Source: Pseudobutyrivibrio ruminis CF1b (GTDB lineage: Bacteria > Bacillota > Clostridia > Lachnospirales > Lachnospiraceae). From it: 64,000 bases of DNA. The translations under genes were made by a program, and so were the position numbers. Every line of letters starts with the position of its first letter. Positions within the stretch are counted from its first letter, which is position 1. The notes below the pieces were generated by a model. It saw nothing but the letters and a program-made list of their open reading frames with translations, made no database searches and was not told the origin of the DNA. The stretch lies in assembly GCF_000424005.1 (NCBI RefSeq), contig NZ_AUJB01000009.1, positions 124,001 to 188,000 of the forward strand, in the 5' to 3' direction. Positions 6,423 through 24,543 of the stretch are shown piece by piece.

Positions 6423-6821
6423 ATGATTAAATGGATGAAGCGACTAAATCAGGCCCTTCCGGGTTTGGTTTTAGGAATACTAGCATACGGACTACTTGTT
6501 GAGCTGATTGGAGTTTGGTTTGTCAGCGATAAAATCAGATACACAACTGGTCTTTTGATTGGAATTGGATGCGCGGTAGGTATGGCCATTCACATTTCAA
6601 TGATTATCGAAGAGTCAGTAAGAATTGGCGAGGGACACGAAAAGTATCTGTCCTTCAAGTCAGTTATGCGATACCTGGTTTTGTGTGCAATTATGATTAC
6701 GATGGCGTTTTTTAACTTAGGAAATATGTTTACGGCGCTCATCGGTGTTCTTGGGCTCAAGGTTAGTGCATACGCACAGCCTTTGCTAATAAAGATTTAT
6801 CTAGGCATTAAGCATAGATAG
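6423..6821 (+). CDS. AtpI-like (ATP synthase protein I) membrane protein
   Basis: The 132-residue protein has four predicted membrane helices (about residues 12-34, 41-60, 80-98 and 102-120) with short basic loops. It lies between the AtpZ-like gene and atpB, where Firmicutes usually encode AtpI, a chaperone for c-ring oligomerisation. Sequence divergence is large in this family, so the name depends on context and topology. Confidence 0.65.
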   Translation: MIKWMKRLNQALPGLVLGILAYGLLVELIGVWFVSDKIRYTTGLLIGIGCAVGMAIHISMIIEESVRIGEGHEKYLSFKSVMRYLVLCAIMITMAFFNLGNMFTALIGVLGLKVSAYAQPLLIKIYLGIKHR

Positions 6822-6859
6822 AGGATGAATTTAGAAAACTTTATAAAGGAGGTGAAAGT

Positions 6860-7588
6860 GTGACAGAAGGAATTTTGCTGGCCTCAAGCGATACTGTGGA
6901 CATGATAAAAGGCTTGTTCAAGTACGAAGTGTTTGGACAGGAGGTTTGGATTACAACCTCTCATGTTTGCATTTTAATCGTCTGGCTTTCATTGGTGCTC
7001 TTTTCTATCATTGCCAATAGGAAGCTGAAGCACGCCACTGAAGTTCCTGATACCTTCCAAAGCATCCTGGAGCTCGTTGTCGGGTTACTGGATTCTGTAG
7101 TGGAAGGAAGTATGGGTAAGCACGCACCAGTGTTTGCAAACTGGATTTGTACCATTTTCTGTTTCATTTTGGTATCTAACTTATCCGGTTTAGTTGGCCT
7201 AAGACCACCAACAGCCGATTACGGTACAACACTGGCACTTGCATTAATTACCTTTGTTTGCATCCATGTAGTAAAGGTAAGGCATCAGAGTGCAAAGGAC
7301 ATTTGGATTGACAAATGTTCACCACTGCCACCATGGTTGCCTATCTGGCTGCCAATCAACGTGATTTCTGATATAGCGGTACCTATATCTATGTCACTGC
7401 GTTTGTTTGCAAACGTTCTTTCAGGAACTATCATTATGGGTCTTGTTTATGGATTGCTAGGAAAATTTGCATTAGTATGGCCTGCAGCATTGCATGTATA
7501 CTTTGATATTTTCTCAGGTGCAATTCAGACCTACGTATTCTGTATGTTAACTATGACATACATAACCCAGTCTTATGGGGATTCTTAA
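6860..7588 (+). CDS. atpB: F-type ATP synthase subunit a
   Basis: This is the membrane stator subunit that forms the ion half-channels against the c-ring. The conserved penultimate helix contains the essential arginine in SMSLRLFANVLSGTIIMGL, and the last helix contains IQTYVFCMLTMTYI. Five or six membrane segments fit 242 residues. The start codon is GTG, preceded by a near-perfect AAAGGAGGTGA. It is the first core gene in the order a-c-b-delta-alpha-gamma-beta-epsilon. Confidence 0.96.
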   Translation: MTEGILLASSDTVDMIKGLFKYEVFGQEVWITTSHVCILIVWLSLVLFSIIANRKLKHATEVPDTFQSILELVVGLLDSVVEGSMGKHAPVFANWICTIFCFILVSNLSGLVGLRPPTADYGTTLALALITFVCIHVVKVRHQSAKDIWIDKCSPLPPWLPIWLPINVISDIAVPISMSLRLFANVLSGTIIMGLVYGLLGKFALVWPAALHVYFDIFSGAIQTYVFCMLTMTYITQSYGDS

Positions 7589-8993: not shown

Positions 8994-10495
8994 ATTTAAA
9001 ACCAGAAGAGATTAGCTCGGTTATTAAAGAGCAAATGAAACGCTATGCAGCGCAGCTTGACGTGGCAGACGTAGGAACTGTTATTCAGGTTGCCGATGGA
9101 ATTGCACGTATTCACGGATTACAGAACGCTATGCAGGGCGAACTATTAGAGTTCCCTGGCGAAGTTTATGGCATGGTCTTAAACCTTGAGGAAGACAATG
9201 TTGGTTGTGTTCTCTTAGGAAACGATAAGAACATCAACGAAGGTGATCAGGTAAAGACAACTGGTCGTGTTGTTGAGGTTCCTGTTGGTGACGCAATGCT
9301 TGGACGTGTAGTTAATGCACTTGGACAGCCTATCGATGGTAAGGGACCTATTGAGACAACAAAGTTCCGTCCAATCGAGCGTGTTGCTTCAGGCGTTATC
9401 TCTCGTAAATCCGTAGATACTCCGCTGCAGACAGGTATTAAAGCTATCGATTCCATGATCCCTATTGGACGTGGACAGCGTGAGCTTATTATCGGTGATA
9501 GACAGACTGGAAAGACTGCTATCGCTATCGATACAATCATTAATCAGAAGGGACAGGGCGTAAAGTGTATTTACGTTGCAATTGGCCAGAAGGCTTCTAC
9601 AGTTGCAGCCCTTGTTAAAACATTAGAAGAATATGGTGCTATGAGCTGGACAACAGTAGTTGCAGCTACAGCATCAGAGCTTGCACCACTTCAGTATATC
9701 GCTCCTTACTCAGGATGCGCTATCGGTGAGGAGTGGATGGAGAATGGACAGGACGTTCTCATCATCTATGATGATTTGAGTAAGCATGCTACTGCATACC
9801 GTACACTGTCATTACTTCTTCGTCGTCCACCAGGACGTGAGGCTTACCCAGGTGATGTATTCTACTTACACTCAAGACTTCTTGAGCGTGCAGCTAGACT
9901 TTCAGATAAGCTGGGTGGCGGTTCTCTTACCGCACTTCCAATCATTGAGACACAGGCAGGCGATGTATCTGCATACATCCCTACAAACGTTATCTCAATT
10001 ACTGATGGTCAGATTTATCTTGAGACAGAAGCTTTCAACGCAGGTTTCAGACCAGCCGTTAACGCCGGTCTTTCAGTATCCCGTGTAGGTGGTTCTGCTC
10101 AGATTAAGGCTATGAAGAAAATCGCAGCTCCTATCCGTGTAGAGCTTGCTCAGTATCGTGAGCTTGCAGCTTTCGCACAGTTTGGTTCAGAGCTTGATGC
10201 CGATACAGCTGAGAAGCTGGCACAGGGTGAAAGAATCAAGGAGATGTTAAAGCAGCCACAATATGCTCCAATGCCAGTAGAGTATCAGATTATGATTATC
10301 TATGCTGCTACTAAGAAGTATTTGCTTGATATTCCAACAGCAGATATTCAGGCTTTCGAGAAGGCATTGTTTGATCTTGTTGATACCAAGTATCCAGAGA
10401 TTCCTGAGGCTATTAAGACTACTAAGGTTCTCGAGGATGACATGGAACAGAAGCTAATTAAGGCTATCGAGGAGTGTAAAAAGACATACAAGTAA
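8990..10495 (+). CDS. atpA: F-type ATP synthase subunit alpha
   Basis: This regulatory nucleotide-binding subunit has Walker [10 protein letters not shown], the Arg-finger region of the [10 protein letters not shown] segment, and the DDLSKHA motif typical of alpha. ATG 8990 is preferred to the in-frame ATG 8981: it forms an ATGA overlap with atpH and has AGGTGA about nine bases upstream, whereas 8981 abuts that site. The product is 501 residues, normal length. Confidence 0.97.
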
Positions 10496-13682: not shown

Positions 13683-14078
13683 GTGTTCATAATCAGAATA
13701 CAAGAATATGAAGAATTGAATTTCACATACACACATAAGATACAGTGTTCCTCACGAGATTTTATTGAAGAAGTTCAAAAGAACCAGGATAAATTCAATT
13801 CGGATATATTGATAATTGTTGACTCAGAACAGGCAGAGATATATTACAACGACAACAGAAAGAAGGACTTAAAAAATATAAATGTATGGCCAGCGAAGAA
13901 AGTACGAATTGAAAGTAATATCTCTGAGTTCAAGTCAAAATTGCAGGAACTTGATACTGTGTTAGACAGTAATAGGATCGAAAATCAGAAAAGATACTGC
14001 ATAATAAAGTTGATTAGGTTCGACGATAATTTTCTGATTATGGACGTATACTTAAAAACAAAAGAGCGTGTTTTATAA
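13683..14078 (+). CDS. Unknown cytoplasmic protein downstream of the micro-ORF
   Basis: The 131-residue product has no recognised domain, no signal peptide and no membrane helix. It is hydrophilic with alternating short beta-like (ILIIVDSE, YCIIKLIRF, FLIMDVYLK) and charged helical stretches. The only standard start is GTG 13683, which overlaps its own GGGGGG Shine-Dalgarno, so initiation is unusual. Re-initiation after the micro-ORF or an ATA/ATC start at 13689/13692 are alternatives. It shares the reading frame of the micro-ORF, separated by TAA AGG GGG. It precedes a terminator and the sensor-kinase gene. Function unknown; perhaps immunity, or processing or transport of a peptide signal. 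Confidence 0.55.
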   Translation: MFIIRIQEYEELNFTYTHKIQCSSRDFIEEVQKNQDKFNSDILIIVDSEQAEIYYNDNRKKDLKNINVWPAKKVRIESNISEFKSKLQELDTVLDSNRIENQKRYCIIKLIRFDDNFLIMDVYLKTKERVL

Positions 14079-14234: not shown

Positions 14235-14265
14235 CTAAGAATTATATGGATTAATGGAGACAGAA

Positions 14266-15555
14266 ATGACTATTTTTTGTATTTTAATTCTTTGGTCTTT
14301 ACTTGAATTTGTTAACTCGTACATCATAGTTAACTATATATTGGAATTAGGGAAAATAAAGAAAAGCAATATCGCTATTTGCCTTAGAATGGCAGTATTT
14401 TGGGCAGTCGTCATAGGTTATGGAATAGTAATTGAATCAAATTCTAAATCCATACTTCTGACCTCATTGCTAACAATATTTATGTATATAAAATCCGGTA
14501 TTGCATTGAGCTCTTTCTTCGATATGAAAGTAAAGCATATATCTCTGATTGCTTTTTTTGTTGGTATCGTATCATTTGTAGGAACCAATATTTTACTGTG
14601 GTTACCGTTTATACCTATAGATATGGGATCGGGATTTCTGAAGGAACTGATTTCAGAAATGTTGTTTGCCATAGTTTTATCGATATTAATGGTTTTGAGA
14701 AGAAATAATCTTCTTAAGATCTATATAGTGGAATTATCTGTAGCTGATAATTTAATTGCCATAATAATACTGTTTTCAATGGGCGTGGTTGAAAGTTATT
14801 TGTATCACACCAATGCTATTTCGTTAAGAATAAAGACAGTAATTGTCTTAGCTATACTTGCAAACGTAATTATGCTGGTAAGAACTCTTTTGATAGTTCG
14901 AAAAAAGAAAGCTGTAGAAACTATCAATATTTTGTTGGAAGAGCAGATAGGAAGAGTTACAGAGTACTACAACGATTTAATCGAGAAAGATGGACAGGCA
15001 AGGAAATTCAGACATGATATTAAGAATCTCCTTATAGTGCTCCATCAGATGATCTTGGAAAATCAAAACGATAAGGCAGTAAAGTACATAGAAGAACTGT
15101 TTGAAATATGTAACAGTTCAAAGGCAAAATTCGATACAGGAAACATAATGGCCGACGCTATCTTAAATGAGAAGAGTGTCAGGGCCGAGCAAAAGGGAAT
15201 AGAGATTAAAATAGATGGCTTTATCCCTTCTGAAAAGATTAACGACGTGGATATGGTAGTAGTACTTTCAAATATTCTGGATAACGCTATAGAAGCCTGT
15301 GAAAAGCTTCAGGGCGAAAAGACTATTTTTCTACATTCAGTCTATAGAAAAAATATTTGGGTTTTAAATGCTGAAAATCCAAGCAACCCGGTTTATCCAA
15401 AAAATAATGAGATTGCTACAACAAAAGACGAAAAGGAAATCCATGGATTTGGTCTGTCAAATATAGAAAGAACTGTCAAAAAATATGATGGAAAAATGAC
15501 CTTGAAATATGAAGACGGTAAGTTTATAAATTCAGTTACATTTATGTTTGACTGA
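14266..15555 (+). CDS. AgrC-like GHKL sensor histidine kinase
   Basis: The N-terminal half has about six hydrophobic helices (residues 1-205), the peptide-sensing layout of AgrC-type receptors. The cytoplasmic half carries the phosphoacceptor motif FRHDIKNLL, the N box DNAIEACE and a G box GFGLSNIERTV, typical of the GHKL/HPK10 group that partners LytTR regulators. ATG 14266 is preferred over 14254 because TGGAGACA lies just before it. The response regulator follows after 14 bases. No AgrB-type peptidase or AgrD-like precursor is recognised nearby, so the activating ligand may be the micro-ORF peptide, the RiPP product, or something else. Confidence 0.88.
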   Translation: MTIFCILILWSLLEFVNSYIIVNYILELGKIKKSNIAICLRMAVFWAVVIGYGIVIESNSKSILLTSLLTIFMYIKSGIALSSFFDMKVKHISLIAFFVGIVSFVGTNILLWLPFIPIDMGSGFLKELISEMLFAIVLSILMVLRRNNLLKIYIVELSVADNLIAIIILFSMGVVESYLYHTNAISLRIKTVIVLAILANVIMLVRTLLIVRKKKAVETINILLEEQIGRVTEYYNDLIEKDGQARKFRHDIKNLLIVLHQMILENQNDKAVKYIEELFEICNSSKAKFDTGNIMADAILNEKSVRAEQKGIEIKIDGFIPSEKINDVDMVVVLSNILDNAIEACEKLQGEKTIFLHSVYRKNIWVLNAENPSNPVYPKNNEIATTKDEKEIHGFGLSNIERTVKKYDGKMTLKYEDGKFINSVTFMFD

Positions 15556-15569
15556 TATAGGAGAATAAT

Positions 15570-16280
15570 ATGATAAAAATTGCGATATGTGATGATTCAG
15601 AATATATGAGAAAGCAGACTGATGATTTGCTTTTAAAGTATTCATTGGAAAAGAATCTGGATTATAGTGTAAAACAATTTGATAATGGCGAAGCTTTGCT
15701 TGAGGAAATCGATAGTTTTAATCTGATATTTTTAGATTATCAGTTTGAGGGCAAAGGTGCCGACGGAATGACAATAGCAAAAGAAATAAGAAAGAAAAAC
15801 TCAGATGTTACTATCATCTTTCTTTCAAGCTATACAAATGTAGTCTTTGAGGCCTTTGAGGTGTCAGCCTTTAGATTCCTTATTAAGCCATTGAGCGAGG
15901 AAAGCCTTTACACAACAATGGATGACTATATGAAAAGCATACAGTCGGACAAGACAATTCTTATTAAGGTGGATGGAACAAACCACATTATTTACGAGAG
16001 TCAGATTACATATATAGAAGCTAATGGTAAAAAGGCCATTATTCATCTGGCAAATGATTCAGAGCCAATAGAGGTGAATGAAACCTTATCAGATGTTGAA
16101 GAAAAGATTACTGAGAATTGTTTTAATCGCTGCCATAAGTCATTCGTGGTAAATATGAAGTATATCGATTCCTTCTGTCATACAGATATTATCCTGACAA
16201 ATAAAGAGTCAGTAATGGTCAGCAGACAAAAATATAAGTCATTTTGCGATGCTTACGCAGAATATATATCGAATAATTAA
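15570..16280 (+). CDS. AgrA-like LytTR response regulator
   Basis: The receiver domain has the acidic pair CDDS, phosphoacceptor Asp in LIFLDYQF, the Ser of FLSSYT and Lys of LIKPLS. The C-terminal LytTR DNA-binding domain starts near residue 130 (ILIKVDGTNHIIYESQITYIEANGK region) and ends in the family pattern FNRCHKSFVVNMKYI. LytTR proteins bind paired 9-bp repeats 21 bp apart; two such candidate sites flank this gene pair (13534-13563 and 16356-16385). It is followed by a strong terminator, then the radical-SAM operon. Confidence 0.92.
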   Translation: MIKIAICDDSEYMRKQTDDLLLKYSLEKNLDYSVKQFDNGEALLEEIDSFNLIFLDYQFEGKGADGMTIAKEIRKKNSDVTIIFLSSYTNVVFEAFEVSAFRFLIKPLSEESLYTTMDDYMKSIQSDKTILIKVDGTNHIIYESQITYIEANGKKAIIHLANDSEPIEVNETLSDVEEKITENCFNRCHKSFVVNMKYIDSFCHTDIILTNKESVMVSRQKYKSFCDAYAEYISNN

Positions 16281-16295
16281 ATACCAAACAGGTCA

Positions 16296-16335
16296 AAAAC
16301 TGGAGTGAATGGTTACCGTTCACTCCAGTTTTTTT
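16296..16335 (+). terminator. Terminator of the two-component operon
   Basis: A 14-bp stem AAAACTGGAGTGAA/TTCACTCCAGTTTT with a 9-base loop is followed by a T run. It lies upstream of the second LytTR-like site, so the radical-SAM operon has its own promoter. Confidence 0.95.
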
Positions 16336-16355
16336 GTTAAAAAGTAAAAACAATA

Positions 16356-16385
16356 GCCGTTTATAACCAAAGGAGTGCTATACAG
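16356..16385 (+). promoter_or_regulatory. Candidate LytTR double site before the radical-SAM operon
   Basis: GCCGTTTAT (16356-16364) matches the first repeat of the upstream site well. The second half at 16377-16385 (GCTATACAG) is weaker, in the same 21-bp register. The surrounding block aligns gaplessly to 13531-13583, with conserved TA-CCG-TTA, AAA--AGT and TCC-AAAATGAAAAAA. This indicates common control of both transcripts, probably by the neighbouring LytTR regulator. Confidence 0.55.
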
Positions 16386-16446
16386 TCCAAAAATGAAAAA
16401 AAAGATAAATACATGAGAAAATAAGTACAACAAAGGAGGAAATGAC

Positions 16447-17832
16447 ATGGGAAGCGGTTACGTCGTAGAAGGTATTATAAGACCTGAAAAATTTGGCGGG
16501 ATTTATTACGAGAGAGACAGATTAGTTATCGAGATGTTAAATTCCGTTGGATATGAAATCTTGAAGCTACTTAAAGAAGATAAGAACGAAGCAGAGATTG
16601 TAGAAGCTCTCAAGAACGAATATGGAGTTGAAGAAGACATTATTAAAAATGATGTGAAAGCCTTTATTGAATATTTGCTAAAAAGCAAATATATCCGTTC
16701 AGAAAAGGAAGTAGTGTCAGAGCAAACCGAAACAAAGAAGACAGCTAATACAGCAACAATGTTTAGCAATAAAGATTTTGTTTTGGGAATGGAGCCATAT
16801 GAACTGGCTACTCCACTGAAGGTACTTTTAGAGCTAACTTATTCTTGTAACTTAAGATGCATTCACTGTTTCGCAGATGCAGATTACTGTACAAAGATTG
16901 AGAATCATAATAATGAGCTTGGTTATGAAGACTGGTGCAAGGTCATTGATAACATCGTGAAAAACAATGTATTCGAAATTCTTCTTTCTGGTGGCGAGGC
17001 GACAATGCGAAAGGATCTCTTCAAAATTGCTGAATATATTCAGTCGAAGGGAAGAAGCTACAGTTTATTAACTAACGCCACATTAATTGATGAAGAAAAG
17101 GCAAAGATGCTGAAGCGTACAGGATGTGCAAAGGTAGAAAGTAATCTGGATGGTTACGATGCAGAAACATACGAAAGCTTCAGAGGTGTAAAGGGTTCTT
17201 TTGATAAGACAGTTAAAGGAATTCAAGCCTGCCTTAACGAAGGCATTCCAGTGCGATGCAATGTTATGGAAACAAAGGTCACTGTATTTAATCTGAAAAA
17301 GATTGTAGACAAGGCCTATGAAATCGGCGTCAGAGAAGTATGCGTAATTCCACTTGAAAATGGTGGTAGAGCAAAGACTAACGATAAGTTGGCATTTGGC
17401 GAACAGGATCAGGAAAAACTATTGGAGTTCTACAAAGATGTTAATGAATGGTTTGATGAGAAATATAAAGATACTGATATGGTTCTCTTCACACCTAATC
17501 TCTTTAACAGGGGAGAGGGTCGATTTACAAAGCTGTTCGATATTGCAAATATCATGCCTAGATGTGGTGCCGGCCTTATTCATTGCACTATTAATCCATA
17601 CGGAATCGTAAAGATGTGCCCATCAGACGAGTCCCTACTTGTCAGAGAGAACAATAGCGCTGTGACACATGATTTAGGAGAAATCTGGAGAAATTCAAGA
17701 GTACTTAAGAATGTTAGAAGTTCTAATTTTAAGAAGTGCGTTCATTGCGATAGCGAATGTAACAGACAGTGCCCTATTACACGTACAGAGTTAGAGGGCT
17801 CATATGAATATGAGTGTGAAAAGGGAGCGTAG
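16447..17832 (+). CDS. PqqD-fused radical SAM/SPASM peptide maturase
   Basis: The 461-residue enzyme begins with a PqqD-like RiPP recognition domain (residues about 1-85, starting YVVEGIIRPEKFGGIYYE). The radical SAM domain has the 4Fe-4S motif C134-X3-C138-X2-C141 (SCNLRCIHC) and the SAM-binding glycine motif LLSGGEAT. The SPASM tail has many cysteines (CGAGLIHC near residue 373; FKKCVHCDSECNRQC near the end) to hold auxiliary clusters. Such enzymes form C-S, C-C or C-O crosslinks or epimerise residues in a peptide. It is first in an operon ending in a candidate precursor peptide. The ribosome binding site is AAAGGAGGAAA. Confidence 0.92.
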   Translation: MGSGYVVEGIIRPEKFGGIYYERDRLVIEMLNSVGYEILKLLKEDKNEAEIVEALKNEYGVEEDIIKNDVKAFIEYLLKSKYIRSEKEVVSEQTETKKTANTATMFSNKDFVLGMEPYELATPLKVLLELTYSCNLRCIHCFADADYCTKIENHNNELGYEDWCKVIDNIVKNNVFEILLSGGEATMRKDLFKIAEYIQSKGRSYSLLTNATLIDEEKAKMLKRTGCAKVESNLDGYDAETYESFRGVKGSFDKTVKGIQACLNEGIPVRCNVMETKVTVFNLKKIVDKAYEIGVREVCVIPLENGGRAKTNDKLAFGEQDQEKLLEFYKDVNEWFDEKYKDTDMVLFTPNLFNRGEGRFTKLFDIANIMPRCGAGLIHCTINPYGIVKMCPSDESLLVRENNSAVTHDLGEIWRNSRVLKNVRSSNFKKCVHCDSECNRQCPITRTELEGSYEYECEKGA

Positions 17833-17835
17833 AAC

Positions 17836-18861
17836 ATGGGAAGAATTTTATTAGAAAAGGATTTATCAGAATATCTAAAAATAGATTGTGATAAGGTCGC
17901 TTTTGACCTCCCTGACAAATTTGTAGCACCAATATCCCTTATTTGGGAGATTACAGGAAAATGCAATTCAAATTGTGTTTATTGTTCTGGATCTTTCCCA
18001 ATAAAGGTTGTAGAGCTTTCCAAAAAGGAAAAAATTGAGTTGGCTAAGGAAATCTGCAACATGGGTGTGTTTATGATTTGTCTGTCTGGCGGAGAGCCAC
18101 TCACAAATGAAGATTTGCTGGATATTGTTCCTATATTTTTAGAGAACAACGTTGATGTAATGGTTTGTACTTCAGGATACATGATCGATTACAAGATTCT
18201 TGATGAATTATTGAAGATGGGAAGAATTGCTTTCAACATTTCTATCGATTCTGTAAGAGAAAGTATAAACGACTATCAGCGAGGAAGAAATGGTGCTTAT
18301 GATGCAGCTATAAATCTGGTGGACTACATCAGAAAAAATGAAAGGGTACCATCATTTATCAGTATAGAAGCAGTAGCCACAAAGAAAAACTATACCTATA
18401 TGGCAGAGTTGGTGAAGTTCTTCAATGAGAAATACGGAATCAATGAGGTGAGAATTCAGCCTGTAGTAACAATGAATACAAAGGTTGTAGAGAAGGGACT
18501 TGAGATTCATCAGGAAGAATTCCAGGAATGCCAGAAGGCAGTTAATGATTTCATCGAGGAATACAATGCCAAGATGAATGTTGATGAAAGGACTGTAAAT
18601 ACCTGCGTCAGATTTATTAATCAGTTCAAGCTTATTGAGACTGGTTTGAAAACAGGTAGAACATGGGGCGGTGTAATTACACCAGAGGGTAATTTCCTGC
18701 TTAGCGTTTATCTGCCAGAAAATCTTGGAAATGTATATCAGAAAGGCAGTTTTAAGCAGTCCTGGGATAAGAAATTTGCAAATGCATGGCTTGATGTAAG
18801 AAAGAAAAGCGAAATTACAAGTCTTAACAGTGTTTACGATATTAAAAAATTATATGTATAA
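17836..18861 (+). CDS. Radical SAM enzyme with cysteine-poor SPASM-like tail (1)
   Basis: The 341-residue protein has the radical SAM cluster motif C43-X3-C47-X2-C50 (KCNSNCVYC) and CLSGGEPL for SAM. The C-terminal part keeps the SPASM/twitch layout (VITPEGNFLLSVYLPENLGNV) but the cysteines normally placed there are absent apart from one (NTCVRF). It starts three bases after the previous gene. It probably modifies the same peptide; whether it carries an auxiliary cluster is doubtful. The C-terminus ends YDIKKLYV, resembling the end of the next protein (TSRLYVS), which suggests duplication. Confidence 0.85.
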   Translation: MGRILLEKDLSEYLKIDCDKVAFDLPDKFVAPISLIWEITGKCNSNCVYCSGSFPIKVVELSKKEKIELAKEICNMGVFMICLSGGEPLTNEDLLDIVPIFLENNVDVMVCTSGYMIDYKILDELLKMGRIAFNISIDSVRESINDYQRGRNGAYDAAINLVDYIRKNERVPSFISIEAVATKKNYTYMAELVKFFNEKYGINEVRIQPVVTMNTKVVEKGLEIHQEEFQECQKAVNDFIEEYNAKMNVDERTVNTCVRFINQFKLIETGLKTGRTWGGVITPEGNFLLSVYLPENLGNVYQKGSFKQSWDKKFANAWLDVRKKSEITSLNSVYDIKKLYV

Positions 18862-18873
18862 AGGAGTAAATGT

Positions 18874-19896
18874 ATGAAGAAATTTATTAATTTATTTGGT
18901 GAAACAAATACCAAAAAGGACATCATGGATGTGGCAGAAGACTTTGGCGATTTGATCGAAGCAAAACTGATTCCTGAAGGCGGCTTTGATGCTCCTCTCT
19001 ACGTTATGTGGGAGTTAACAAGCAAGTGCCCAAACCAGTGTATGTACTGCTACAATGATTCTCATTTCAAGAGAGAGAACGAGCTTAGCCGTAAGAGAAA
19101 GTTCGAGATTGCAGACAGCTTAATTAAGGCAAAGGTTTTCCAGGTATGTTTAACAGGTGGTGAGCCTACATGCTGCCCAGAGTATTTCGATTTAATGAGA
19201 TACCTTAGAACAAATGGAATTGAAATCGGAACAATCCTCAGTGGCGCTAATTTAGATAAGCAGAAGATTAGAAAGATTGCTCAGTACATCGATATGGTTC
19301 AGATCAGTTTGGACGGTTCACGCGCTGAGATTCACGATAAGGTAAGACAGAGAGAGGGTTCATTTGATGAAGCTGTATTTGCAATCAAGGAGTTTGTAGC
19401 CCTTGGAAAGCAGGTAAAGGTTTCATTTGCAACAACTAAGTACAACATTGATGATTTTGCAAATACTGCAGAGCTTTGTGCAAAGCTTGGTGTTAGTTCA
19501 TTAAGAACTCAGAGATTATCTGTTTCAGGAAGAGTAAAGGGTAAGGAAGACGCAATCTACGCTTCAGAGGAGCAGTTTGAGAAGCTTGAGGAGTACATCA
19601 ACTCCAAGAAGGCTCCATTAATGATCGAATACAGAAGTCCATCTGAGCACGTAGAGTTCGGTATCAAGAATGGATTTGCAACAGTAATGAGAATTAACTC
19701 AGAGGGCTTGGTAGGTATCACACCATACATCGATGTATTCTTCGGTGATTTAAAAGAGGAATCATTCACAGAGGCTTGGAACAAGATGAAGATTGGCTGG
19801 CACAATGAGAAGATGCTTGATCTTGCAAAGGTTATGAATGAAAGAGAAAACGGCACATTATTAGATCCATTAACAAGCAGATTATATGTTTCATAA
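18874..19896 (+). CDS. Radical SAM enzyme with cysteine-poor SPASM-like tail (2)
   Basis: This 340-residue paralogue of the preceding protein has C52-X3-C56-X2-C59 (KCPNQCMYC) and CLTGGEPTC. The C-terminal region (INSEGLVGITPYIDVFFGDL) again occupies the SPASM position without cysteines. Together with the first enzyme this makes three radical SAM proteins acting in one pathway. Codon use is notably rich in favoured codons compared with the genes before it, perhaps meaning higher expression. It has the AAAGGAGTAAATGT ribosome binding site. Confidence 0.85.
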   Translation: MKKFINLFGETNTKKDIMDVAEDFGDLIEAKLIPEGGFDAPLYVMWELTSKCPNQCMYCYNDSHFKRENELSRKRKFEIADSLIKAKVFQVCLTGGEPTCCPEYFDLMRYLRTNGIEIGTILSGANLDKQKIRKIAQYIDMVQISLDGSRAEIHDKVRQREGSFDEAVFAIKEFVALGKQVKVSFATTKYNIDDFANTAELCAKLGVSSLRTQRLSVSGRVKGKEDAIYASEEQFEKLEEYINSKKAPLMIEYRSPSEHVEFGIKNGFATVMRINSEGLVGITPYIDVFFGDLKEESFTEAWNKMKIGWHNEKMLDLAKVMNERENGTLLDPLTSRLYVS

Positions 19897-19915
19897 ATAT
19901 TAGGAGGAAAGAAAA

Positions 19916-20194
19916 ATGTATACAAACGAAGTACCAAAGTTATTAAACATCAAGTGGAGATATGAAGGAGAAGGAAAGTTCATCATTTATCAGCACCCAA
20001 TTACAGGAATGTTAGATATTTTGAACCCAGTAGCAAGTATCATTTTTGCTAACTGTAACGGCAAGAATACTGTTGAGGAGATTTGTCACATTATCAAGGA
20101 TACTTTCACAGGTGTAGATGAGAAGATCATTAGCAATGATGTAGACCAGTTCATTAATTACCTTAAGAAGGAAGAAATTCTGTTTTTAGTTTAA
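19916..20194 (+). CDS. Free-standing PqqD-like RiPP recognition protein
   Basis: The 92-residue product has the winged-helix PqqD pattern: beta strand pair (FIIYQHPITGMLDILNP), a helix containing ASIIFANCNGKNTVEEIC, and a C-terminal helix ending in NYLKKEEILFLV. PqqD proteins bind the leader of a RiPP precursor and present it to the radical SAM enzyme. The YxxP motif in the candidate precursor at 24330 is the kind of leader signal recognised by such domains in lasso peptides. TTAGGAGGAAAG precedes the start. Confidence 0.85.
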   Translation: MYTNEVPKLLNIKWRYEGEGKFIIYQHPITGMLDILNPVASIIFANCNGKNTVEEICHIIKDTFTGVDEKIISNDVDQFINYLKKEEILFLV

Positions 20195-20205
20195 AAGGAG
20201 ATAGC

Positions 20206-20676
20206 ATGGAGTACAAAAACTTTTTGGAATGCGACATGGACAGTGTATGTGAGTTTATCCTCGATAATCATAGAAACAATCAGCAGGTTGTTTCTATGTA
20301 CACCTTCAGTCGTATGGTAAGCGAGAGATTAAGAGGAAATATTGAGACAGGAATTGCCTGTATTGCAGATGGAAAGGTTGTAGGTGTAATCACAGCTATT
20401 ACAGCTAACAAGCAAAACTATTGGGCCATTGGCGTCCTTTATGTAGATGAGGAATACAGAAATAAAGGCATTGCAAAGAGTCTTGTTGAAGAGCTTGAAA
20501 AATCTATAGCAGAGAATTGCCACAGTAACTTCAAAGTAAACATTTCTGTTAACAAGAGCAATGAGCCAATAGCAAAAGTATTTGATTACAAGGATTACCT
20601 GGTTGAAGGATGTATTAAGGGACTTGTATCAGAGGATGACATGGTAATCATGGGAAAAATACGTCAGGTAGTATGA
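20206..20676 (+). CDS. GNAT-family N-acetyltransferase
   Basis: The 156-residue protein has GNAT motif A (VDEEYRNKGIAKSLVEEL) with the acetyl-CoA pyrophosphate loop R-x-x-G-x-A. In this operon it could acetylate the mature peptide, its precursor, or provide self-protection; the substrate cannot be read from sequence. It starts 12 bases after the PqqD gene with AAAGGAGATAGC. Confidence 0.85.
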   Translation: MEYKNFLECDMDSVCEFILDNHRNNQQVVSMYTFSRMVSERLRGNIETGIACIADGKVVGVITAITANKQNYWAIGVLYVDEEYRNKGIAKSLVEELEKSIAENCHSNFKVNISVNKSNEPIAKVFDYKDYLVEGCIKGLVSEDDMVIMGKIRQVV

Positions 20677-20686
20677 GGAAATAACA

Positions 20687-20881
20687 ATGATTAGTTCAAG
20701 TGTAATAAAGCTAATATTACCTTTGCTTATCTTTAACATTGTTTTAATCGTGGTATCTCTCAGGGATATCTTCAGGAATGGAAAATTCAAACACGGCAAT
20801 AAAGCAATGTGGATTGTACTGGTAATATTTGTACAAATTCTGGGACCATTAAGCTATTTCTTGATTGGCAGGGATGATTAA
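20687..20881 (+). CDS. Small two-helix membrane protein (PLDc_N-like)
   Basis: The 64-residue protein has two membrane helices (about residues 5-25 and 40-60) joined by a basic loop, and ends GPLSYFLIGRDD. That layout and the final G-P-x-x-Y-x-x-x-GR pattern match the PLDc_N domain found as small immunity-type or ABC-associated membrane proteins in bacteriocin loci. It precedes an ABC ATPase gene by one base and is probably part of the same immunity/export unit. Confidence 0.75.
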   Translation: MISSSVIKLILPLLIFNIVLIVVSLRDIFRNGKFKHGNKAMWIVLVIFVQILGPLSYFLIGRDD

Positions 20882-20882
20882 T

Positions 20883-21797
20883 ATGACGAACGCAAATTAC
20901 GTTTTAGAAGTAAAAAATCTAAGTAAAAACTTCAAAGAAAAGAAGGTAATAGATAACGCATCTTTTGCCATTAACAGAAATTCCATTGTTGGAATTATTG
21001 GTAAGAATGGTGCCGGAAAGACAACCCTGATGCGAATGATAATGGGATTTCTTAAGGCGGATAAGGGTGAAATAACAGTCGATGGAGAGACGGTATCTTT
21101 CGGTGAAACAAGCGGGAAAATAGCTTTCATGTCCGATGTGCCTGTTTTCTACGATTACATGACTGCATATGAATACATGAAGTTTGTGGCCGAGCTAAAG
21201 GGAATTGAAAAAACAAAAATTAGCGATGTCATTTCAAAGTACTTGGATGCGGTAGGATTGTTGGAAAGCAAGGACAAAAAAATCGGCGGATTTTCCAGAG
21301 GCATGCGCCAAAGATTAGGCATAGCACAGTGTTTAATCGGAAATCCCAGCATAATCATTTTTGATGAGCCTATGTCTGCATTGGATCCAGGAGGACGTGC
21401 TGAAGTAATAGAAATCATGAAGCGCATAAAAGAAAGAACCAGCATACTTCTATCTACACACCTGGTTTCTGATATCGAAAAGCTTTGTGATGATGTAATC
21501 ATTTTGGAAAATGGTGAAACCAAAAAAATGGAAAAGGATAGAAGAGAAAATCTTTTTGGTAAAAGCAAAATGATAGAGATTTCTTTTGACTTCCAGCAGG
21601 AAGATGAAATGAATCTGTTGGAAGAAAAGCTGAAAAACATGGGGGCGGAATGTAAGAAAAATGGAAACGAGCTCTATGTAATTGATTCAAACAATATTTT
21701 CCTGAAGGAAATATATACCTATTTCTCAAAAGAAAGTTCATTACACTATCCAGTTTCCATACGTAGTCTTTCCACAAATGTTGAGGATCTGATATAG
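20883..21797 (+). CDS. ABC transporter ATP-binding protein (1)
   Basis: Walker A GKNGAGKTT, signature FSRGMRQRLG, Walker B IIIFDEPMSALDP and the H-loop STHLV are intact. Its C-terminal extension of about 80 residues is typical of bacitracin/lantibiotic-type exporters (BcrA/LanF). ATG 20883 is chosen with AGGGATGATT upstream; TTG 20865 and ATG 20874 are alternatives. Its partner is the permease gene directly downstream. Confidence 0.93.
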   Translation: MTNANYVLEVKNLSKNFKEKKVIDNASFAINRNSIVGIIGKNGAGKTTLMRMIMGFLKADKGEITVDGETVSFGETSGKIAFMSDVPVFYDYMTAYEYMKFVAELKGIEKTKISDVISKYLDAVGLLESKDKKIGGFSRGMRQRLGIAQCLIGNPSIIIFDEPMSALDPGGRAEVIEIMKRIKERTSILLSTHLVSDIEKLCDDVIILENGETKKMEKDRRENLFGKSKMIEISFDFQQEDEMNLLEEKLKNMGAECKKNGNELYVIDSNNIFLKEIYTYFSKESSLHYPVSIRSLSTNVEDLI

Positions 21798-21805
21798 GAG
21801 TAAAA

Positions 21806-22582
21806 ATGTTGAGGAACATGGCAACCATAATAAAAAAAGAGTTAATAGAATCAATAAGAAAATACCGTTTATTCATTCTGATGGCAGTGTTCATTTTTAT
21901 CGGATTTATGTCACCTATTGGTACTAAATATCTGGGAGAAATAATGTCTATGTTGCTTCCAGAGGGATATGAAATAAAGGTGAGACAAGCCTCAGAAGTA
22001 GAAGCGTATTTTCAGTTTTTCAAGAACATCTCCCAGTTGGGAATGGTGGTTTTCATAGTGGTAAGTTCTGGGCTGATGGCAGATGAATTCGAAAAGAAAA
22101 CAATAGTATGTCTTCTTACAAAAGGTGTAAGCAGAAGCAAAATCATAATAAGCAAATTTATTGCTGGCGCATTAGAGCTTTTGTTTTGCTACATAACAGC
22201 AGTTATTATTTTCCGTTATTACACAGGAGTGTTTTGGAGCAACCAGGTGGAGATAGCAACACTACTGTATTCAAACCTAATAGTCTTTGAATACGGTTTA
22301 CTAATCCTTGGTCTCAACATATTCCTGGGTACCAAATTTGGAACGAAACTAGCTACGGTTACCAGCTGTATATTCATTAACATTCTTCAGATATTAATGA
22401 GTATTCATCCAACTATAGCAAAGTATCTTCCAGTTTCCCTGCTGAGCAATTGTGTATATATCGTTGAGCAGAAGAAGACTGTTTCGGACACCGTTGCAGC
22501 AGTGGTTATATCAATGTTAATAACGATTCTTTTGTTAGTGATTTCTATAAAAGCTTTTAAAGAAAAGGAAATAGAACAGTAA
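21806..22582 (+). CDS. ABC-2 type transporter permease (1)
   Basis: The 258-residue protein has six membrane helices: one near residues 22-42, a pair around 75-95 and 115-140, and three in the C-terminal half. The short cytoplasmic motif DEFEKKTIVCLLTKGVSRSKII is characteristic of ABC-2 permeases. It pairs with the ATPase at 20883 and overlaps the next start by one base (TAATG). Likely exports the peptide or gives immunity. Confidence 0.88.
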   Translation: MLRNMATIIKKELIESIRKYRLFILMAVFIFIGFMSPIGTKYLGEIMSMLLPEGYEIKVRQASEVEAYFQFFKNISQLGMVVFIVVSSGLMADEFEKKTIVCLLTKGVSRSKIIISKFIAGALELLFCYITAVIIFRYYTGVFWSNQVEIATLLYSNLIVFEYGLLILGLNIFLGTKFGTKLATVTSCIFINILQILMSIHPTIAKYLPVSLLSNCVYIVEQKKTVSDTVAAVVISMLITILLLVISIKAFKEKEIEQ

Positions 22583-23502
22583 TGAATGATAAGACATTTG
22601 CCATAAAGATTGATGGCGTTACAAAAAGATTTGACCAGAAGGTAGCAGTAAACAACCTTTCACTTACTGTAAATTCTGGAGAAATATTCGGATTTTTGGG
22701 TCCCAATGGAGCAGGTAAAACCACTCTGGTAAAAATGATGAATGGAATACTTACTCCTAATGAAGGAATCATAAGTATTGAGGGAATCAATCCTTTCGAG
22801 AAGCCTGCAGTAGCCCATAGATACATGGGAACCCTGACAGAGACAGCAAACATGTATGAGTATATGACTGGCGAGGAAAACCTTTATTTCTACGGAAGTG
22901 TATTCGGCATGGATAAGGCGGTTCTGAAAGACAGAATCGAAGAACTTCTGGAGGCAGTTGACCTACTGGATGACAAGGATAAGAAAGTGGGAGATTACTC
23001 AACAGGAATGAAGAAAAGACTGGCCCTTGCCAGAGCAATCATTCATTATCCTAAGCTTGTTATTTTGGATGAGCCAACATCTGGTTTAGATCCTGAAAAC
23101 GCCAGGAAGATTAATAGCTTAATAAAAGAATATGTGGCTACAAACAATGCAACAGTATTCATTTGTACCCACCAGCTCCGTTATGCTCAGGATATTTGCG
23201 ACAGATATGGATTCATTAATAAAGGACATATTATTTGTACAGGAACACTTTCAGAATTAATAGAGAAGAACAGTTTCTCTAATAACATACATTTAAAAGC
23301 AAAATTAGGATGCCCTAATAAATTGCTGGATCAGTTTAAAATCCAGGAGGAAATCTATCAAATTCCTTTTACTGATGAGGAAGAGATAGCAGAGTTAATA
23401 AAGTCAGTTGTAGTAGATGGAGGAAAAGTATATGAGGCACGACTAAAGAGGCCAACCTTAGAGGACGTATATTTTTCGTTGTTGAATGAGGAGGCATCAT
23501 GA
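22582..23502 (+). CDS. ABC transporter ATP-binding protein (2)
   Basis: Walker A GPNGAGKTT, signature YSTGMKKRLA, Walker B LVILDEPTSGLDP and an H-loop region CTHQLR are present in 306 residues. It is distinct from the first ATPase of the operon. Its TGA overlaps the ATG of the following permease. Confidence 0.93.
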   Translation: MNDKTFAIKIDGVTKRFDQKVAVNNLSLTVNSGEIFGFLGPNGAGKTTLVKMMNGILTPNEGIISIEGINPFEKPAVAHRYMGTLTETANMYEYMTGEENLYFYGSVFGMDKAVLKDRIEELLEAVDLLDDKDKKVGDYSTGMKKRLALARAIIHYPKLVILDEPTSGLDPENARKINSLIKEYVATNNATVFICTHQLRYAQDICDRYGFINKGHIICTGTLSELIEKNSFSNNIHLKAKLGCPNKLLDQFKIQEEIYQIPFTDEEEIAELIKSVVVDGGKVYEARLKRPTLEDVYFSLLNEEAS

Positions 23503-24284
23503 GTAAGAGCGTATTGGCAATAATTATAAAAGATCTTAAATACATATTAAGAAGCAAGCAGCTAATAGCATTGATGTTGTTAGTGCCCTTGGTATTAACA
23601 GTAATTATGCCGTCGATTTTCGTGATTGCAATCAGCAATTTACAGGTGAACATGGAGGACTTCAAAGCCATCATAGAAAAGGTGGTTGGAAAAGAAAATG
23701 TGGAACTGGCATATCAAAAACAACTAATTATCAGCTACTTTTTGAATAATATACTTCCAGTATTTTTCATGTTGATACCTACGATGATGTCGACGATTAT
23801 TTCATCAAATTCATTTATAGGTGAGAGGGAAAAACACACCTTAGAAACCTTATATTATTCACCGATTAAGGTGAGAGATATATTCATAGCAAAAAATGTA
23901 GTTTCAATCTGTCTAAGTATGATTCTAAACTTTGCAGTATTCATAGTAATGACAGTAATCATAAATATAGTTCTGTTGGCTGTAGGAATGCCAGCATTCA
24001 TACCAGGATTAAAATGGCTGATTGTAATTTTATGTACAAGCCTGGCTATCACAATTATATCCACCGGTATTGTAGTTAGTAAATCAAATAAATCAGATTC
24101 AGTTGAAGAAGCACAGCAATCTGCCGTATTTATTATTCTTCCGATTATTGGCTTGGTAGTGGGTCAGTTTACAGGTTTCATAATGATTAGCAAACTTATA
24201 CTAGCCATTGCCAGTTTAATATTCTTAATAATTTCAGTTATGGTTTTGAAATTATTATCTAATAAAAATGATTATTATGCTTAA
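23499..24284 (+). CDS. ABC-2 type transporter permease (2)
   Basis: The 261-residue protein has six membrane helices. The second cytoplasmic loop (SFIGEREKHTLETLYYSPI) is the conserved ABC-2/NatB-type motif. It pairs with the ATPase at 22582 (ATGA overlap). With the other pair, the locus has two separate transporters, a frequent division between export and self-immunity in peptide clusters. Confidence 0.9.
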   Translation: MSKSVLAIIIKDLKYILRSKQLIALMLLVPLVLTVIMPSIFVIAISNLQVNMEDFKAIIEKVVGKENVELAYQKQLIISYFLNNILPVFFMLIPTMMSTIISSNSFIGEREKHTLETLYYSPIKVRDIFIAKNVVSICLSMILNFAVFIVMTVIINIVLLAVGMPAFIPGLKWLIVILCTSLAITIISTGIVVSKSNKSDSVEEAQQSAVFIILPIIGLVVGQFTGFIMISKLILAIASLIFLIISVMVLKLLSNKNDYYA

Positions 24285-24329
24285 TGAAAATTAGGCATTA
24301 ATAATAAATATTTTAAAGGGAGGAGGGCA

Positions 24330-24461
24330 ATGATTATGAAGCAGGAATACACTTCACCAGCTAGTTTACGTTTATCAAGCGTAGACAACGAGTACGGAGC
24401 AGCTATCGGTGCTGTAGTACTTTGGGTAATTGGTGCTGTTTTCGGTTGGTTAGCAACCTAA
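24330..24461 (+). CDS. Candidate RiPP precursor peptide (43 residues)
   Basis: ATG 24330 (alternative 24336) follows AAAGGGAGGAGGGC, a very strong ribosome binding site. The leader-like part holds Y7-T-S-P10 and L13 (YxxPxxL), the motif recognised by PqqD-type domains in lasso peptides, then SSVDNEYG. The tail from residue 23 is uncharged, hydrophobic and rich in Gly/Ala with W32, F38 and W40. It has two GxxxG motifs (G23/G27 and G35/G39) and ends WLAT. There is no Cys, so a thioether sactipeptide is excluded. Its place as last gene of the radical-SAM operon, before a terminator, supports the precursor call. No double-Gly cleavage site is visible. Confidence 0.75.
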   Translation: MIMKQEYTSPASLRLSSVDNEYGAAIGAVVLWVIGAVFGWLAT

Positions 24462-24508
24462 AATTAGTATTAATTAATCATTGGGTTGTTAAATAACTCC
24501 CAAAAGAA

Positions 24509-24543
24509 AAAGGAGTGAAATCATAAGATTTCGCTCCTTTTTT
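24509..24543 (+). terminator. Terminator of the RiPP operon (bidirectional with greA)
   Basis: AAAGGAGTGAAATC pairs with GATTTCGCTCCTTT (one G-T pair) around ATAA, followed by six T. On the minus strand the same stem is followed by T-rich sequence, so it can also end greA transcription. Confidence 0.92.

Follow-up and report, generated by a model that had tools for sequence, protein, structure and literature searches.

What is made by a compact run of genes in Pseudobutyrivibrio ruminis CF1b in which three radical S-adenosylmethionine (SAM) enzymes are combined with PqqD-type proteins, two ABC transporters and a short hydrophobic peptide? The run occupies positions 16447-24461 of a stretch of 64,000 nucleotides of contig NZ_AUJB01000009.1 (positions 124,001 to 188,000 of the forward strand); this whole stretch is called the window below. 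An original prediction, made from the letters of the sequence, had described ten genes in one direction with tiny gaps or overlaps. Direction and spacing were found as described, all genes being on the + strand with neighbours that overlap or lie 1-45 bases apart, but the genes number eleven (Table 1). Pfam and NCBIfam comparisons confirmed the identities that had been assigned: a PqqD-fused radical SAM/SPASM enzyme (rSAM1), two more radical SAM enzymes (rSAM2 and rSAM3), PqqD, a GNAT acetyltransferase, a membrane protein, two ABC pairs and the peptide. Judged by these genes and their relatives, the locus very probably encodes a ribosomally synthesised and post-translationally modified peptide (RiPP), with the peptide gene at 24330 encoding the precursor. 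As to the product itself, for which the original prediction named no chemistry, the reading that we prefer, at a probability of roughly 40%, is a PqqD-guided peptide which would be epimerised by a radical SAM enzyme to alternating L and D residues and would act as a channel.

The precursor and its relatives

The peptide gene is preceded by the strong ribosome binding site that had been predicted for it (GGGAGGAGGG at 24318-24327). Its product has a leader of about 20 aa and a core of about 20 residues, is present as a single copy in its own genome and gave no Pfam or NCBIfam match at an expect value (E) of 0.1. Claveliimonas monacensis (locus L004) has counterparts of all eleven genes, arranged as in the window; its peptide is 88% and its other ten proteins are 42-77% identical to those of the window, the peptide thus being the best-conserved product of the cluster between the two organisms. 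Of the codon differences between the two peptide genes, counted over 41 codons, 18 are synonymous and 4 alter an amino acid. Because the same eleven genes stand in the same order in a second organism and synonymous changes prevail in the peptide gene, the arrangement goes beyond chance; the peptide gene is real, and its product is likely to be a substrate of the enzymes.

In [Clostridium] polysaccharolyticum (L005) the genes are rearranged: a peptide of 46% identity precedes rSAM1, and the locus encodes two B12-binding radical SAM proteins and a methyltransferase in addition. A genome from another class of the phylum (G1053, locus L016), the only one besides the window's own to be matched among 398, contains PqqD, rSAM1-like, rSAM3 and PqqD genes together with two precursors; no relative of rSAM2 or GNAT was present in the 35 kb fetched around this cluster. 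In both of these precursors Pro is found at +3, Ala-Ile at +18/+19 and Trp at +25 from the Tyr of the YxxP motif, ungapped and exactly as in the window peptide. This spacing was read off the sequences, and the automatic alignment puts gaps only after those columns.

A genome from another family of Clostridia (G449, locus L013) possesses relatives of rSAM2 and rSAM3 along with PqqD, B12 radical SAM, transporter and PLDc_N genes and gave no match to the peptide genome-wide at E 10. According to the original prediction, a neighbour genome with the enzymes and no peptide gene would refute it, and G449 is literally such a genome. We read it as decay because the 5' part of rSAM1 has gone at the same place, leaving only the 3' part (L013 11592-12047). 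The same locus encodes at 14548-15516 a radical SAM-like protein without CxxxCxxC, possibly a pseudo-enzyme partner.

A precursor is thus found in four of the five loci with an rSAM3 ortholog (window, L004, L005 and L016; absent from L013) and PqqD in all five, which upholds the 24330 peptide as a RiPP precursor; the predicted action of all three enzymes on it is less certain, no rSAM2 counterpart having been seen in the stretch fetched from G1053. Co-occurrence of a YxxP-leader peptide with the enzymes had been suggested as a check, and it extends to [Clostridium] polysaccharolyticum and to another class. As far as sequence can tell, a ribosomal precursor is kept with modifying enzymes and a RiPP precursor recognition element (RRE), and the locus is a RiPP cluster whose precursor and enzymes occur together in four genomes. 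The libraries searched also hold no named class for it: no match among the best 25 per protein reached its NCBIfam cut-off, and the cluster falls outside the families represented there, just as no RiPP class could be named for it before.

The cluster is rare and patchy. Among 29 genomes of the genus the peptide is present only in that of the window organism, apart from one chance match; rSAM3 occurs in 2 of 299 genomes of the family, one being the window's own; and the peptide was clear in 1 of 397 genomes, with two chance matches in addition. Peptide-profile matches in G314, G349 and G424 (E 0.083, 0.0098 and 0.0091) were rejected as chance-like, the short loci inspected having neither a matching precursor nor an adjoining radical SAM gene.

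YxxP-like motifs are described for several RRE groups including PqqD (PMC12710340). In a specificity scan the combination of YxxP with a hydrophobic tail fitted 21 of 5060 small open reading frames (ORFs), namely seven precursors (window, L004, L005, two of G1053, and those of G762 and G621 described below), the peptide of G799 and 13 chance-like ORFs. Since there were 13 chance-like fits and the precursor of Collinsella was missed, the pattern alone proves little.

A candidate epimerase and its wider family

The SPASM Cys set, as expected of a SPASM enzyme that makes C-C crosslinks of the streptide/PQQ type, is conserved in the alignment of rSAM1, which resembles the solved proteins SkfB and PqqE; its structure model had a mean predicted local distance difference test (pLDDT) value of 54.5 and was left out of the fold search. 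The profile of rSAM2 is related to that of rSAM3 along most of its length. By sequence, each of the three enzymes scored best with SkfB among solved proteins, and in the model-based search the fold of rSAM3 was closest to SkfB and SuiB. These likenesses would suit a different outcome, in which the radical enzymes make C-C or other crosslinks, desaturations or ring closures on Trp, Tyr, Val or Ile without epimerisation, yielding a constrained hydrophobic bacteriocin. A radical SAM-SPASM enzyme that cyclopropanates Val on repeats is known (PMC9062424). Such a product is a real possibility, held by us with less than even confidence: the auxiliary-cluster Cys of oxidative enzymes are missing from rSAM2 and rSAM3, and crosslinking leaves unexplained an invariant Cys of rSAM3, the parity of Gly and aromatic residues in the cores and the alternating Asn of a related precursor.

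The Cys in question, Cys92, is the sole invariant Cys beyond the cluster triad in nine of nine rSAM3-type sequences, which are 21-77% identical to that of the window, and it sits in strand 90-94 of the rSAM3 model; among the five orthologs Cys202 is invariant too. In the loci gathered, which came from rSAM3-profile searches rather than a random sample and did not include Collinsella, a Cys occupies the place of Cys92 in 8/8 rSAM3-type and 1/24 SPASM-type radical SAM proteins. One of 38 proteins, with four C-terminal Cys, lay between the groups and was dropped. According to PMC8326336, epimerases of the PoyD type carry, besides an RRE, the radical SAM cluster only and a single strictly conserved Cys, and every second residue is epimerised by PoyD. 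A triad-only cluster and a single strictly conserved Cys outside the triad, for which a catalytic role is predicted, are also found in rSAM3. No PqqD match at E 0.1 was obtained that would represent a C-terminal RRE on rSAM3, PqqD being instead free and fused to rSAM1, and no PoyD model stands among the best 25 of the 63 NCBIfam matches for rSAM3. On balance rSAM3 has about an even chance of being an epimerase.

When six rSAM3-type queries were run against the class, 18 of 391 genomes matched at E 1e-38. All matches other than those in the window, G449, G621, G762 and G799 had five or more C-terminal Cys and were ordinary SPASM enzymes. The profiles of the window group and of the G621/G762 group align over most of their length. 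In G621 (L024) a YxxP precursor at 6781-6948 (- strand) shows Asn at nearly every second core residue, a polytheonamide-like pattern with one Leu interrupting the run, and its neighbours are an rSAM3-type enzyme, a PqqD-domain protein, a methyltransferase and a B12 radical SAM protein. A subtilase gene (15710-16984) is located close to this precursor. G762 (L055 5152-11541) combines two rSAM3-type enzymes, a PqqD-domain protein and a SPASM radical SAM protein (partial match to rSAM1, 27% over 188 columns) with a YxxP precursor that has a long Gly/Ala/Val/Trp core. The rSAM3-PqqD-rSAM3 segment of G762 is bracketed by two inverted copies of one integrase-core transposase and may for this reason be mobile.

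Collinsella aerofaciens NZ_OY725717 (L112 8072-10206) encodes a PqqD-domain protein, an rSAM3-type enzyme and a hydrophobic YxxP peptide. The annotated start of this peptide at 10051 is internal, and the upstream ATG at 10024 of the ORF adds the YxxP leader. Though listed as a plasmid (900 kb), the record looks chromosomal since it carries rplS and glyS. A reading of the PqqD-domain proteins in G621, G762 and Collinsella as PqqD-GNAT fusions was dropped at a profile comparison probability of 0.2. In G799 (L056 6912-8549, - strand) a YxxP peptide, a PqqD-like gene and a SPASM-poor radical SAM protein adjoin ABC genes; with its Cys four and not three residues before GGEP it was not counted as a member of the family, and its core was left unscored for parity, a Pro having cut it to one residue.

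Parity of core residues and the proposed product

The cores of the window, C. monacensis and C. polysaccharolyticum peptides have four Gly on one parity and four aromatic residues on the other. One G1053 core agrees with one Gly and three aromatics, the other with two aromatics. In G762 the four Gly and four aromatics before the first Pro segregate in the same phase relative to the Tyr as in the window family; the rule had been derived from the window family and was then checked on G762 with the sequence already in view. Shuffling gave p values for period 2 of 0.011 (window), 0.009 (C. polysaccharolyticum) and 0.009 (G762), and of 0.12 and 0.47 for the G1053 cores. No core reached significance at a period of 3, 3.6 or 4 (lowest p 0.15).

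For hydrophobic segments taken from other proteins, the rate of perfect segregation came to 6/151 when all mechanical ORFs of at least 90 aa were taken and seven duplicate loci left out, and to 3/103, 4/118 and 5/175 under three composition filters when non-overlapping ORFs of at least 120 aa were taken and 22 duplicate loci left out. At these background rates each independent case of parity is worth about 1 in 30, and the three members of the window family count about once because they are homologous.

The Gly residues of the window core are spaced by four and eight, and its hydrophobic stretch is long enough for one membrane helix. Both features would be expected of an alpha-helical membrane-active peptide with GxxxG-type helix pairing in which only one or two positions are altered. 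We regard such a helix as unlikely, since Gly spacings of two in C. polysaccharolyticum and six in G762 violate a period of four, and significance was reached at period 2 and not at 3.6 or 4.

Four observations weigh against an epimerised channel peptide. The solved folds nearest to that of rSAM3 are not epimerases. The window core holds a tandem 8-residue repeat. The aromatics of the Collinsella aerofaciens precursor are unsegregated, a clear exception to the parity rule. Finally, G449 keeps rSAM2, rSAM3 and PqqD with half an rSAM1 and no precursor.

The parity of Gly and aromatics and the alternating Asn agree with beta-helix channels of alternating L and D residues, gramicidin A and polytheonamide being examples. 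Gramicidin A, a non-ribosomal channel peptide, is short and built of Gly, Ala, Val, Leu and Trp, its Trp and Gly residues falling on opposite parities; it pairs end to end to span the membrane. The window peptide would be similar in being short, in its residue types and in having Trp and Gly separated in this way. Unlike gramicidin A it is ribosomal, and its D residues would require a radical SAM enzyme. In polytheonamide B, alternating L and D residues are reported to give a beta-spiral that allows ion-channel action (PMC8183687), 18 D residues being present in a peptide of 48 (PMC5808125).

For the window peptide to become such a channel, the PqqD domain of rSAM1 and the free PqqD would capture the leader and deliver the core to the radical SAM enzymes. 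rSAM3 would abstract alpha-hydrogens of the core, and Cys92 would give hydrogen back on the opposite face, so that D residues arise at every second position; Gly would occupy slots otherwise D, and aromatics the L slots. Some oxidative change may be introduced by rSAM1, which has the SPASM Cys set; rSAM2 may be accessory, and the GNAT might cap the N-terminus, which is a guess. A protease encoded outside the cluster would remove the leader. The alternating core would then wind to a gramicidin-like beta-helix serving as a membrane channel, and hence as a bacteriocin, for which a core of about 20 residues would need end-to-end pairing to cross the membrane. The two ABC systems, together with the PLDc_N protein, would serve in export and resistance.

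Neighbouring genes and known peptide classes

Table 1. Features of the cluster and its flanks (window coordinates)
Feature	Position	Strand	Basis
AgrC-like sensor kinase, possible regulator	14254-15555	+	GHKL HATPase_c_5 E 2.4e-24; weak AgrC model match below cut-off
LytTR response regulator, possible regulator	15570-16280	+	LytTR E 2.5e-18, Response_reg 1.3e-14
rSAM1, radical SAM/SPASM enzyme with N-terminal PqqD domain	16447-17832	+	Pfam PqqD E 2e-12, Radical_SAM 3.8e-21, SPASM 0.0068 (below its cut-off)
rSAM2, radical SAM enzyme without conserved SPASM Cys	17836-18861	+	Pfam radical SAM
rSAM3, radical SAM enzyme without SPASM Cys; proposed epimerase with Cys92 as proposed hydrogen donor	18874-19896	+	Pfam radical SAM
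Free PqqD-type protein, predicted to bind the leader	19916-20194	+	PqqD E 2.1e-10
GNAT acetyltransferase	20206-20676	+	Acetyltransf_1 E 1.3e-11; relatives matched only in L004, L005
Small PLDc_N membrane protein, putative immunity candidate	20687-20881	+	PLDc_N E 1.9e-10; relatives in L004, L005, L014
ABC ATPase 1	20883-21797	+	Pfam, NCBIfam
ABC-2 permease 1	21806-22582	+	ABC2_membrane_2 E 1.1e-12
ABC ATPase 2	22582-23502	+	NCBIfam DrrA-type match below cut-off
ABC-2 permease 2	23499-24284	+	ABC2_membrane_2 E 1.9e-11
Precursor peptide, 43 aa, YxxP leader and hydrophobic core	24330-24461	+	ORF, homologs
Two tandem 24-base copies within the core (8-residue repeat)	24405-24452	+	
Terminator-like hairpin 3' of the peptide gene	24506-24543	+	

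Below the NCBIfam cut-offs, likenesses were seen between ABC ATPase 1 and lantibiotic self-protection and GldA types, and between ABC ATPase 2 and DrrA-type exporters. The start of ABC ATPase 1 is an ATG of our choice, the mechanical ORF beginning at 20865.

A hairpin (16295-16333) lies between the cluster and the kinase/LytTR pair upstream of it, and just ahead of the kinase gene a 131-aa DUF5975 protein (E 1.5e-08) is encoded at 13683-14078. Orthologs of the LytTR regulator at E 1e-60 were found in 6 of 28 congeners, next to a lantibiotic dehydratase (L026), a radical SAM/SPASM protein (L030), ABC genes (L027, L028) or other genes (L029, L031). This suggests that the pair is a module common to different peptide clusters. 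It is a possible regulator of the cluster here. Its position immediately upstream, and the peptide-type or transporter genes that adjoin it in congeners, would also suit an autoinducer role for the peptide, with maturation by the radical SAM enzymes and detection through the AgrC-like kinase and its LytTR partner. A signalling role of this kind is very improbable: relatives of the pair are absent from the fetched stretches of L004 and L005, none of the six congeners has a clear peptide match, and two ABC pairs with a PLDc_N protein better fit export and self-protection.

Viral contigs contained no relative of rSAM3 or of the peptide, and phages gave no match to rSAM3. The 52 viral-contig loci retrieved with the G762/G621 enzyme profile were partial-query matches of 23-37% identity and were not taken as members. 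Eight weak plasmid matches were likewise rejected, seven being annotated mycofactocin maturases and one unannotated; among plasmid records the enzyme type was seen in the one Collinsella record, with weaker matches in 13 further records. Among the papers listed by a literature search with slight coverage of subscription papers and preprint servers, none was found by title or abstract start to describe the cluster, and the main text of a study of RiPP mining in anaerobes (PMC4289311) mentions no polysaccharolyticum, PqqD, epimerase or proteusin.

Among known systems the polytheonamide-type proteusins (PoyA, PoyD and B12 radical SAM methylases) share several features with the cluster: a hydrophobic or Asn-rich core with proposed L/D alternation, a proposed epimerase with the radical SAM cluster only and one strictly conserved Cys, and B12 radical SAM proteins, which are added in the related loci L005, L014 and L024. 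They differ in their long nitrile-hydratase-like leader, the place of which is taken here by a YxxP leader of about 20 residues without a Pfam family at E 0.1, and in that PqqD is here free or on rSAM1, with none matched on rSAM3, and the window core has only about 20 residues. The sactipeptides (SkfB, AlbA) are alike in that SkfB is the best solved sequence match for all three enzymes. They are unlike in that the precursors of the window, L004 and L005 and the two of L016 contain no Cys, so that no thioether is possible; the earlier argument that a peptide without Cys is neither a sactipeptide nor a ranthipeptide therefore stands. Lasso peptides share a YxxP leader motif read by a PqqD-like domain, whereas neither a lasso cyclase nor a leader protease was detected by Pfam or NCBIfam among the eleven genes. 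The epipeptides (EpeX/YydF with EpeE/YydG) would be alike, if the epimerised channel is right, in radical SAM epimerisation and in being short, secreted and membrane-active (PMC8326336); EpeE is a two-cluster type of epimerase.

Alternating L/D membrane-channel peptides are known as non-ribosomal gramicidin A and as polytheonamide-type proteusins. It is conceivable, though doubtful, that the peptides described here form a new RiPP class of ribosomal gramicidins, L/D-alternating beta-helix channels made from YxxP precursors by a separate family of radical SAM epimerases with PqqD-type proteins alongside. As parts of the same tentative proposal, these epimerases would have lost the SPASM Cys and carry the hydrogen-donor Cys three residues before GGEP, setting them apart from the epimerases of proteusins and epipeptides, and the class would range over Lachnospiraceae and other Clostridia, a further class of the phylum, and Collinsella. 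If so, a YxxP leader, Gly/aromatic parity and a Cys three before GGEP would together be a simple rule for finding further members. An epimerase acting on a core of 20 residues and a candidate class of bacteriocins would be at hand, and a short, leader-guided ribosomal route in anaerobes would mean that the same architecture has been reached by other enzymes too.

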